The position numbers were made by a program, and so were the translations under genes. The notes below the pieces were generated by a model. It saw only the letters and a list, made by a program, of their open reading frames with translations, ran no database searches and was not told the origin of the DNA. From Acidobacterium sp. (GTDB taxonomy: Bacteria > Acidobacteriota > Terriglobia > Terriglobales > Acidobacteriaceae), in NCBI GenBank assembly GCA_003166955.1, contig PMUI01000091.1:62281-126280 (forward strand): DNA of 64,000 bases. Reading direction: 5' to 3'. Position 1 is the first letter of the stretch. Each line of letters starts with the position of its first letter. Positions 20,428 through 25,439 of this stretch are shown here, one piece after another.

Positions 20428-20706
20428 ATGCCTGTGCTGGAAGACAGAGTCGTCACTGCAAAAATGAAGTTCATCCCACTGTGGAAGCTGGAACGGGGCG
20501 AGCTGGTCCGCCAGTTCGAGTTCGAGAACTTCATCGAGGCCATGAATTTTGTGAACAGTGTGGCGGAGTTGGCCGAAGGCGCAGGGCACCATCCTGACAT
20601 CGACATCCGCTATAACAAGGTCCGGCTGGCGCTGATGAGCCACGACGCCGGCGGTCTAACCGAGAGAGATTTCGATCTCGCGGCAGGGATCGACAGCCTC
20701 GGTTGA
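20428..20706 (+). CDS. phhB: Pterin-4a-carbinolamine dehydratase family protein
   Basis: A 92-aa single-domain protein contains the PCD signature EGAGHHPDIDIRYNKVRLAL, with the catalytic His-His-Pro in place, and the typical start LEDRVVTAKM...W. It dehydrates 4a-hydroxytetrahydrobiopterin in pterin recycling. Bacterial versions may also act in molybdopterin or folate-related chemistry. No phenylalanine hydroxylase gene is seen nearby. It lies 40 bp after the HD-GYP gene. Confidence 0.9.
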   Translation: MPVLEDRVVTAKMKFIPLWKLERGELVRQFEFENFIEAMNFVNSVAELAEGAGHHPDIDIRYNKVRLALMSHDAGGLTERDFDLAAGIDSLG

Positions 20707-20709
20707 CGG

Positions 20710-20961
20710 TCATCTCCGGTTCATTGGGCCGTACGGCCCGGCGCTGACAGCCCTGCAACTCTTATCCTTCTTCGTCGTCTGGAGGTAAAGAGGGCTTTTT
20801 GCCGGGTCCAGGATGACGCAGACCGGAAAGGCCTTCCGATTCCAGAGCACGACGGCCAAACCACCCACGAGAGCCGAGCCGGCGACGATCATACCGGTGA
20901 GAAAGGCCTTGACTTTTGTGCCGGACGAGGGTGTTTCGGGGTCATGTGGCTGATTTGGCAT
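20710..20961 (-). CDS. Small single-span membrane protein
   Basis: An 83-aa protein starting MPNQPHDPETPSSGTKVKAF, with one transmembrane helix at about residues 20-40 (FLTGMIVAGSALVGGLAVVL) and a basic, Cys-containing tail (TTKKDKSCRA). No family is recognised. It converges with the pterin dehydratase gene, leaving 3 bp between stops, and is divergent from the ncRNA unit at 21.03 kb. Confidence 0.6.
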   Translation of the reverse strand: MPNQPHDPETPSSGTKVKAFLTGMIVAGSALVGGLAVVLWNRKAFPVCVILDPAKSPLYLQTTKKDKSCRAVSAGPYGPMNRR

Positions 20962-21033
20962 CGAATGAGCACGGTTCAGAGTTTCAAAATGGGCCTGTCA
21001 ACCACAAAAGAAATATTAAATTGTGTATGAGAC

Positions 21034-21062
21034 TTGTACATAAGGGGGTTCAGGGTTACACT
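21034..21062 (+). promoter_or_regulatory. Candidate sigma-70-type promoter of the ncRNA unit
   Basis: TTGTAC (21034-21039) and TACACT (21057-21062) are separated by 17 bp. The predicted start, 6-7 bp downstream, is at G21068/69, exactly the first base of the predicted closing stem of the RNA. Confidence 0.5.
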
Positions 21063-21067
21063 ATTTT

Positions 21068-21247
21068 GGAGATCAGGAATCGTCAGTTTGTTGCCCGGCA
21101 AGCCATACGCGAAGGATGGAAGGGGCATCTGACATAGAGAAGATTTTAGCCGGACCGGCGACCGAGAATCCCGGCTGGCAGCGAATTTTTAAGTTGCGTC
21201 ACTGGCCTCCCGGCACGAACAAATCAACGTTCGTGCCGTTTTTTTTT
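21068..21247 (+). ncRNA. Candidate structured ncRNA of about 180 nt (6S-like layout)
   Basis: The region between promoter and terminator has no convincing ORF. Its ends pair: GGAGATCAG (21068-21076) with CTGGCCTCC (21202-21210), 8 of 9 pairs including one wobble. A large internal bubble follows (9 nt on the left, 15 nt on the right). A second stem pairs 21086-21095 with 21177-21186 (10 contiguous pairs, three of them G-U). Local hairpins lie inside, for example AGCCGG/CCGGCT at 21148-21153/21171-21176. Closing stem, bubble, stem and a length near 180 nt resemble 6S RNA, which sequesters sigma-70 RNA polymerase. The branched apex is less typical, so another family is possible. Confidence 0.45.
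21211..21247 (+). terminator. Strong intrinsic terminator
   Basis: A perfect 10-bp stem (21211-21220 with 21229-21238, 8-nt loop) is followed directly by nine T residues. It begins one base after the closing stem of the candidate ncRNA and 78 bp before the next gene. Confidence 0.9.
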
Positions 21248-21324
21248 GCAATTTCCGCCTTCCTGATGCTCCACCAACCCATCTGGCCGCCCCGCCAACC
21301 ACTCACAAAAGCTCCTGTACTACG

Positions 21325-21831
21325 ATGAAAGCGGAGACCTCGACGTTGAAGCGAGCCGTCCTTAGTCTGATCGCCGCCATTCTGGTTGTGGCCGCTTATG
21401 CCGTTCCCGGCAGCGTGGGTCCGGGAGGCGCCGTGCACGCGCAGTGGTCTGACCCGCAGCAGGATGTACCCGCCTATCATCCGCTGGCACCGCGGAAAGG
21501 GGAGGCGCTGCCGCCGATTCTCTCCGGCAATCAGCTGACCGGTCCGTTCTTCCGCGAGAAGTGGCAGGTCGAAGTCTACAAAGAGGCGGCGGAGATCCCC
21601 GAGGTGCTGTATCAGTTGCCGTGCTATTGCCGCTGCGACCGCGCGCTGGGGCACACCAGCCTCCATAGCTGTTTTGAAGGGACGCACGGGGCCATCTGCG
21701 CAACCTGCGCCGCGGAGGGCGCGTACGCCTGGAAGATGACGAAGCTGGGCAAGACACCCGAACAGATTCGTGCAGGCATCGAACGGAAAGAGTACGAATC
21801 AATCGACCTGGACGCGCTGGGGCGCAGTTAG
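21325..21831 (+). CDS. Exported PCYCGC-motif family protein
   Basis: This 168-aa protein has an N-terminal signal or anchor segment (LSLIAAILVVAAYAVPG). The mature part contains LPCYCRCDRALGHTSLHSCF, the diagnostic cysteine cluster of the PCYCGC family (PF13798), and then ICATCAAEGAYAW. Six Cys lie within about 30 residues, suggesting metal or haem-related binding or a disulfide-rich site in the periplasm. The molecular function of the family is not established. It starts just after the terminator of the candidate ncRNA, so it needs its own promoter. Confidence 0.8.
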   Translation: MKAETSTLKRAVLSLIAAILVVAAYAVPGSVGPGGAVHAQWSDPQQDVPAYHPLAPRKGEALPPILSGNQLTGPFFREKWQVEVYKEAAEIPEVLYQLPCYCRCDRALGHTSLHSCFEGTHGAICATCAAEGAYAWKMTKLGKTPEQIRAGIERKEYESIDLDALGRS

Positions 21832-25127: not shown

Positions 25128-25439
25128 ATGCCGCCCGATACTCCCTCCCGCCGCAAACAGAGAACCCCGCCTCCCGGAGAAACCGGACAGGAAGCTCTCT
25201 ATCTGCGCTCGTTGAGCGACCGGCAGGTTCCGGTGCACGTGAAGCTGCAGGACGGCGAGACCGTCTCCGGTTGGATCGAGTACTTCGACGACCGCATGAT
25301 CCGCCTGACTCGCGAAGGCAAGCCAAACCTCTTCATCTATAAACATCAGATTCGGACCATCACCGAGCATGGCCGCGAGGGGCGCCGCCGTAACCGCAGC
25401 GACACACCCGCGGAAGCGGCGAGTGAGGACAGCCAGTGA
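25128..25439 (+). CDS. hfq: Divergent Hfq-like (Sm-fold) RNA-binding protein
   Basis: This 103-aa protein has an Sm core at about residues 20-75: YLRSLSDRQVPVHVKLQDG (Sm1) and LFIYKHQIRTI (Sm2). The Sm2 YKH matches the Hfq signature. The Hfq proximal face should therefore exist. The distal-face residues equivalent to Y25 and K31 of E. coli Hfq appear as Lys and Thr, so A-rich RNA binding may differ. Pro/Arg-rich N- and C-terminal tails are extra. Hfq proteins form hexamers that help small RNAs pair with mRNAs. The stop overlaps the start of the next gene (GTGA). Confidence 0.75.
   Translation: MPPDTPSRRKQRTPPPGETGQEALYLRSLSDRQVPVHVKLQDGETVSGWIEYFDDRMIRLTREGKPNLFIYKHQIRTITEHGREGRRRNRSDTPAEAASEDSQ

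Follow-up and report, generated by a model that had tools for sequence, protein, structure and literature searches.

The intergenic stretch at positions 21034 to 21247 of the window (the whole stretch of DNA analysed, 64,000 nucleotides from an Acidobacterium sp.) raises the question of which RNA, if any, it encodes. In the preliminary description it was read as a unit running from promoter to terminator with the layout of 6S RNA or, if not 6S, as an undescribed structured RNA. Judging from its sequence features, it very probably encodes a non-coding RNA, called RNA1 here, other than 6S. The gene seems to be conserved and so far undescribed, with a promoter and a terminator, and its transcription is predicted. 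A conserved core in RNA1, together with a second RNA (RNA2) that is complementary to it, suggests an RNA switch that has not been described before, in a bacterial group that has received little study.

Annotated regulatory RNAs are scarce in Acidobacteria. A motif survey from 2010 gives Acido-1 and Acido-Lenti-1 for this phylum, both of them as Rfam families, and an Rfam-based survey counts four distinct annotated small RNAs for it (PMC9029176). The coordinates of the features discussed are collected in Table 1.

Table 1. Positions of RNA1, its parts and neighbours in the window, and of the loci that carry its complement
Feature	Position	Strand	Basis or remark
Pterin-4a-carbinolamine dehydratase (PF01329), upstream neighbour of RNA1	20428..20706	+	Pfam, 102.5 bits
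Putative RNA1 promoter: TTGTAC (21034-21039), 17 nt, TACACT (21057-21062)	21034..21062	+	read from sequence; weak consensus
RNA1, predicted small RNA of about 180 nt	21069..21247	+	promoter and terminator bounds; 5' end inferred from the -10 position
Genus-level conserved block GGCATCTGA	21124..21132	+	alignment of 12 congeners
Hairpin upstream of the core	about 21149..21179	+	retains 6-11 of its 11 pairs across 12 congeners; RNAalifold keeps part
Invariant core TTGCGTCACTGGCCTCC, 17 nt, directly 5' of the terminator; contains anti-Shine-Dalgarno-like CCTCC	21194..21210	+	pattern search
RNA1 segment GTCACTGGCCTCCC, with a 14-nt complement in site B of RNA2	21198..21211	+	sequence complementarity
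RNA1 intrinsic terminator, 10-bp stem and nine T	21211..21247	+	terminator scan
PCYCGC-motif protein (PF13798), downstream neighbour, outside RNA1	21325..21831	+	Pfam, 37.8 bits
Site B (GGGAGGCCAGTGAC) of the RNA2 of the same genome	G000:C133:27693-27706		14 nt complementary to GTCACTGGCCTCCC
RNA3-like loci	L273, L275, L276, L280, L281		four genomes; G384 also carries RNA2

The transcription unit and the 6S question

The sigma-70-type promoter proposed for this unit agrees with the consensus at only 7 of 12 positions, and it is absent from the output of a scanner that demands 9 of 12. Similar elements (TTGTGC, and TACACT or TACGCT) nevertheless occupy the same place in most of 11 congeners. 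The terminator is present as first described: two arms of 10 nt (21211-21220 and 21229-21238) pair perfectly around a loop of 8 and are followed by nine T (21239-21247). In the 2.5 kb scanned, 2.4 terminator-like sites would be expected by chance. ORFs of 70 and 73 amino acids, found mechanically, overlap the unit; they were judged unlikely because the core allows no change at any codon position, and the view that no believable ORF is present stands. By sequence only, RNA1 is thus intergenic with its own promoter and intrinsic terminator, as trans-acting small RNAs have. A DNA search matched the unit in 17 of 41 genomes, among them all 12 of the same genus, its own included.

RNA1 resembles 6S RNA in its size, in its promoter-to-terminator layout and in the long, bubble-containing rod of the window's centroid fold. 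Its folding is modestly better than chance (z -2.07, with 7 of 200 shuffles equally stable). The closing stem of that fold, GAG-UCAG with CUGG-CUC, does end one base before the terminator, as claimed, but it is not conserved: across 12 same-genus sequences, the window included, 6-7 of its 7 pairs are found in five, 4-5 in two and 3 or fewer in five. Similarly, the bubble and the 10-bp inner stem can be seen in the window's fold, but the inner stem is complete (10 of 10 pairs) there only, with 3-7 of 10 pairs in the other same-genus sequences. RNAalifold on orthologous regions, which had been put forward as a check, gave 23 pairs for 12 congeners, only one of them with a change on both sides, and recovered no 6S-like rod. 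Structural homology of the whole of RNA1 was rejected on this count and because the flanks diverge across the family.

Covariance models do not match RNA1 as 6S. An Rfam search of the window gave nothing at gathering score at RNA1, the lone match in the region being driven by the terminator (E 2, below gathering score), and a search of 20960-21330 returned no 6S match up to E 5. The 6S RNA of this genome lies on another contig (G000:C56:14749-14940) and scores 55 bits, over a cut-off of 46.4. In some other genera, the apparent -10 is only about 50-60 nt away from the core. The 6S identity (RF00013) was therefore rejected, on the missing match, the canonical copy elsewhere and the stems broken in congeners, and it is hardly conceivable that RNA1 is 6S or another polymerase-binding RNA of the 6S type.

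A linear core conserved across the family

The invariant part of RNA1 is, on its sequence, a linear core of 17 nt and not a large structure. It was searched for in 299 genomes of the class with the pattern AGTTGCGTCACTGGCCTCC, up to two mismatches being allowed and the inner 17-mer then judged. By hand count from the match list, the core is exact in 58 of the 74 genomes of the family and in none of the 225 other genomes of the class. Outside the family, 10 imperfect matches were found among those 225 genomes, no more than with a reversed-pattern control. The genomes that bear the core have one exact copy each. A scan of named genomes gave at least 118 stretches with the core; 77 of the 80 listed bear acidobacterial names, and the genera among the listed matches include Granulicella, Edaphobacter, Silvibacterium, Terracidiphilus and Acidipila. 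The core is also present on contigs that bear the labels Rhodanobacteraceae and Verrucomicrobia (L094, L116); the label of L116 is probably a binning error, since acidobacterial neighbours are present there too.

The rest of RNA1 drifts, as indicated by an information content below 0.3 bits per position from 10 nt upstream of the core onward (149 distinct instances chosen for an exact core, after removal of duplicates and short loci). The length and the upstream sequence of RNA1 vary across the family, giving a conserved seed amid diverging flanks. In the alignment of congeners the order is a conserved promoter region, the GGCATCTGA block, the hairpin and an invariant segment that runs into the terminator. 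The terminator itself varies with its pairing kept (for instance, CGGCATGAAC/GTTCATGCCG), and in two genomes seen (G161, locus L292, and G142, locus L293) its stem is wholly swapped for CCCCTATCGGC, the core being unchanged. The variants with kept pairing and the -10 distances were read from 138 loci, three loci that were too short having been dropped and duplicates collapsed. Conserved structure in RNA1 seems to be confined to the terminator, with one hairpin added at the genus level. As for the undescribed structured RNA offered initially as a fallback, an undescribed conserved RNA gene is retained, and the word structured suits it poorly, its invariant part being linear.

In predicted folds the core is only about half open, which weakens the case for a seed: its mean unpaired probability is 0.49 versus 0.41 with shuffled upstream flanks, and it is higher in 105 of the 149 instances. 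Accessibility is uneven along the core, the CUCC end reaching 0.68-0.83 and other parts 0.16-0.33.

A cis-acting leader, i.e. RNA1 as an attenuator or riboswitch of the downstream PCYCGC gene, would fit the arrangement of many loci, as this gene is on the + strand, the same as RNA1, in 125 of the 125 loci where it was found and its match starts at most 500 nt from the core in 96 of the 145 loci with enough sequence. Against it, 30 of the 145 loci, all of them with at least 1500 nt downstream, have no PCYCGC match and still keep RNA1 and its terminator, and no conserved antiterminator arm is seen upstream of the core. These counts come from a scan with one query at E 1e-4, which could miss diverged copies, over 164 loci that were not deduplicated, some genomes appearing twice. 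We consider a leader function very improbable.

On the other side of RNA1, a small gene (20710-20961, - strand) is divergent from it and has matches at the same place in relatives. A hydrophobic stretch read by eye suggests that its product may be a membrane protein.

A putative second RNA complementary to the core

The complement of the core (GGAGGCCAGTGACG) was searched for in 25 genomes with one mismatch allowed. One recurring non-coding site was obtained, GGAGGCCAGTGACT, present in 9 of 12 congeners; the other three have GGGGGGCCAGTGAC in the equivalent RNA, which pairs with the core through G.U. Other complements were discarded: CGAGGCCAGTGACG recurs as well, but a copy that was inspected is inside a long open frame, and the remaining one-mismatch complements fetched from the genome of RNA1 are in long open frames and were judged to be chance matches.

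The locus of RNA2 is a conserved intergenic stretch in which the complementary site, called site B, lies just 5' of a terminator-like hairpin; in the genome of RNA1 the gene before it encodes formamidopyrimidine-DNA glycosylase, according to Pfam. Site B (GGGAGGCCAGUGAC) is a 13-nt complement of the 3' half of the core that often forms a hairpin, and it is found about 120-200 nt downstream of the RNA2 promoter. In several genera a further site, site A (GCCAGYGAYGYA), adjoins the inferred start of RNA2 and pairs with the 5' half of the core. Where site A exists, the two sites jointly cover the whole core; by eye, it is absent in genera g23, g25 and g27. RNA2 has further conserved blocks within the window's genus. 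By the scoring rule used, 11 of 47 RNA2s have no terminator. Rfam gave nothing at gathering score for RNA2, its weak matches (E 0.64-1.2) being taken as chance, and ARAGORN found no match in 9 loci.

Upstream of RNA2 there is a -24/-12 sequence, TGGCAC-N5-TTGC[T/A], which we take, from the consensus, to be a sigma-54 promoter. When the highest score within 350 nt upstream is taken, 21 of 37 sites reach at least 15 of 18, versus 1 of 37 on the reverse strand, the 37 including seven sites that look unrelated. Among 67 RNA2s, the best score is at least 15 of 18 in 52 and below 13.5 in 4. Sigma-54 is encoded in the genome (rpoN, 196.6 bits). Two conserved blocks (like TTATGGATTTCCGGA and TTCTACGGGAATCTGAA) lie upstream of the RNA2 promoter, at about 930-1000 of L206 and at equivalent places; from their sequence, they resemble an inverted pair of sites to which a sigma-54 activator could bind. 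At least four genomes carry a further RNA with the same site B (RNA3-like: CGGGTC-CACCC ... GGGAGGCCAGTGACCCG) and with a -24/-12-like sequence of its own, which scores 14-14.5 of 18. The sponge side may thus be a small family.

The pairing was followed in a hand-made list of 67 genomes, one RNA2 per genome, three of which are of the RNA3-like type. The 13 pairs between core and site B are Watson-Crick throughout in 49 RNA2s, include one G.U in 12 and have one break in 6, so that all 13 are kept, G.U included, in 61 of 67, in a set mostly selected on site B. Since most RNA2s were found through site B, its conservation in this set is selected for, and its own hairpin could be part of the reason for that conservation. 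For the 18 RNA2s whose site B has changed, about 5-7 events that keep pairing and about 4 that break it were counted by eye, with no tree. Pairing-keeping changes are not clearly commoner than breaking ones, and there is therefore no strong covariation between core and site B.

One test was not selected on site B. A pattern with the -12 element and site A only was found at 48 places in the 299 genomes, of which 38 were examined; two places with antisense RNA1 were set aside and eight were left out, three of these being read as antisense RNA1. Site B within one change is carried by 7 of the 9 matches that have GG at -24, i.e. a full promoter, and site B within two changes by none of the 29 that lack GG; the hypergeometric P, worked out by hand, is about 3e-6. 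Two matches have GG without site B, namely a chance-like place in the genome of RNA1 and a place in G021, a genome that lacks RNA1.

RNA1 and RNA2 also occur together. A 20-mer of RNA2, with at most one mismatch, is found in 36 of the 58 genomes that bear the core, in none of the 16 family genomes that lack it and in none of the 225 others. Within the family, Fisher's test gives P 4e-6, relatedness being ignored. The loci of all 36 genomes were retrieved, and the promoter score is at least 13.5, the floor used in one scoring round, in 33 of them. Further fetched loci raise the number of core-bearing genomes with a located RNA2 to 50 of 58 (they come from G000, G239, G019, G138, G236, G299, G242, G281, G302, G293, G290, G169, G189 and G266), a count that includes G302, with the RNA3-like type, and G233, G230 and G185, with low promoter scores in the scanned window. 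It was not located in the other eight core-bearing genomes (G254, G220, G150, G224, G161, G201, G142 and G216). Both genomes with the other RNA1 terminator stem, G161 and G142, are among those in which RNA2 was not located.

The estimated energies are favourable to pairing. For the RNA1 and RNA2 of the window's genome, the 14-bp duplex has -30.1 kcal/mol and the opening of the two RNAs costs 9.8 and 6.45, which leaves a net -13.9. With 47 RNA2s, the set that remained after 7 of 54 candidates were judged chance matches and removed (it also served for the terminator counts), the best duplexes of a 23-nt core average -34.4, versus -22.9 for shuffled RNA2s, and 2.5% of the shuffled RNA2s reach the weakest observed duplex energy. 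The first 40 nt of RNA2, with site A, have a mean duplex of -17.7, versus -12.9 (sd 3.4) with shuffled cores.

An invariant sequence at two loci could also be a DNA site for a protein, placed in opposite orientations towards the ends of two RNA genes. Against this reading, the loci inspected have the sequence within a unit bounded by promoter and terminator, immediately 5' of the latter. Likewise, 12 of the 18 site-B variants are G.U-compatible, although for transitions this proportion does not clearly exceed chance. A DNA site of this kind is, in our view, a very doubtful explanation.

A possible sponge switch and its relation to known systems

Possible mRNA partners were searched for in 21 genomes with GGAGGCCAGT and a nearby ATG. 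This gave 17 matches at 16 sites, one of them being RNA2, versus 10 with a reversed control; in the genome of RNA1 there were none, versus 3 with the control. Three of the matched strings recur, in two genomes each, and in none of them does the ATG begin a long frame; a site found in a single genome (G010) precedes a long frame. A recurring mRNA with long complementarity to the core at its start codon was not found in this 21-genome search. The genome has two Hfq matches over cut-off, the stronger (100 bits) being on contig C82. The second, divergent Hfq (PF17209, 37.9 bits) is in the window at 25128-25439 (+), 3.9 kb downstream of RNA1. More than 4.5 kb of sequence is available downstream of RNA1 in 40 loci, and a relative of this divergent Hfq lies there in 4.

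RNA1 could still be an ordinary trans-acting small RNA, its core being fixed by many mRNAs or by an RNA-binding protein and RNA2 being incidental or a target. A single covarying partner would not require so rigid a core, the CCTCC of the core is like an anti-Shine-Dalgarno seed, and there are the eight core-bearing genomes in which no RNA2 was located. However, RNA2 is the only recurring long partner in the searches made, the two RNAs co-occur, the comparison of 7 of 9 with 0 of 29 did not depend on selection by site B, and sites A and B together span the core wherever A exists. This reading is unlikely, though the least so of the alternatives.

We regard it as fairly probable that RNA1 is a trans-acting small RNA titrated by RNA2, a sponge under sigma-54 control. 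This proposal draws directly on the conservation, the single exact core per genome, the complementarity, the -24/-12 sequence, the co-occurrence and the presence of rpoN and hfq; the transcription of both RNAs, their pairing in the cell, the direction of control and the mRNA targets are predicted from these. RNA1 would be made constitutively from its sigma-70-type promoter and ended by its intrinsic terminator, and its working part would be the linear core between the upstream hairpin and the terminator. With its CCUCC end, the core may bind the Shine-Dalgarno regions of target mRNAs, which would then be translated less. RNA2, in turn, would be transcribed from the sigma-54 promoter when an activator fires, and would carry the mRNA-like site B and, in several genera, site A at its 5' end. 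By mimicking a Shine-Dalgarno region it could bind and titrate RNA1 and free the mRNAs. The switch would in this way couple a sigma-54 signal to a constitutive RNA.

The same pairing evidence is compatible with reversed roles, RNA2 being a sigma-54-controlled regulator of mRNAs and RNA1 its constitutive antagonist, and the additional genus-level blocks of RNA2 are in line with them. However, the site in RNA2 is like a mimic of the Shine-Dalgarno sequence (GGAGG) and that in RNA1 like its complement, a likeness that suggests the titration of RNA1 by RNA2 instead; we hold the reversed assignment to be improbable.

Whether the whole is an undescribed family-wide two-RNA switch, with a constitutive RNA of unusually rigid core and a sponge activated by sigma-54 that has one near-invariant site and, in several genera, a second, is in our estimate an even question. 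If so, a post-transcriptional circuit tied to sigma-54 would extend through the family, including genera that have isolates, for instance Granulicella and Edaphobacter. The case also shows that a complement search with an invariant core can reveal the partner of an orphan small RNA. Neither RNA1 nor RNA2 is matched in Rfam release 15, and no title on the pair was found in a literature search whose reach left out most subscription journals.

GlmY and GlmZ of enterobacteria are under sigma-54-type control, and GlmY, which resembles GlmZ, is the decoy in the RapZ system. In this control the pair is like the one proposed here. It is also like it in having two small RNAs and a decoy logic (PMC7073468). 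Unlike GlmY and GlmZ, RNA1 and RNA2 are complementary and not alike. As for 6S RNA (RF00013), the likeness of RNA1 is in size and promoter-to-terminator layout, and the differences are the unmatched covariance model and the unconserved stems.

The closest parallels found are sponge pairs. CjNC110 and CjNC140 of Campylobacter jejuni, a species without Hfq, are also two conserved small RNAs; they bind each other, as gel shifts show, by way of a CU-rich and a GA-rich element, and one of them is suspected to be controlled by sigma-54 (PMC10470494). By contrast, the RNA1 core is family-wide and known from sequence alone, and the likeness claims no sequence relation. In Caulobacter crescentus, CrfA is a regulated sponge that inactivates the conserved small RNAs SisA-D, with Hfq; there, one sponge, induced by carbon starvation, acts against four siblings (PMC12559287), whereas RNA1 and RNA2 would be one small RNA and a putative sponge of sigma-54 type. 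Sponge pairs are thus already known as a kind, RNA1 and RNA2 appear to be new members of it, and a rigid core with a sponge that sometimes has two sites is an unusual variant.
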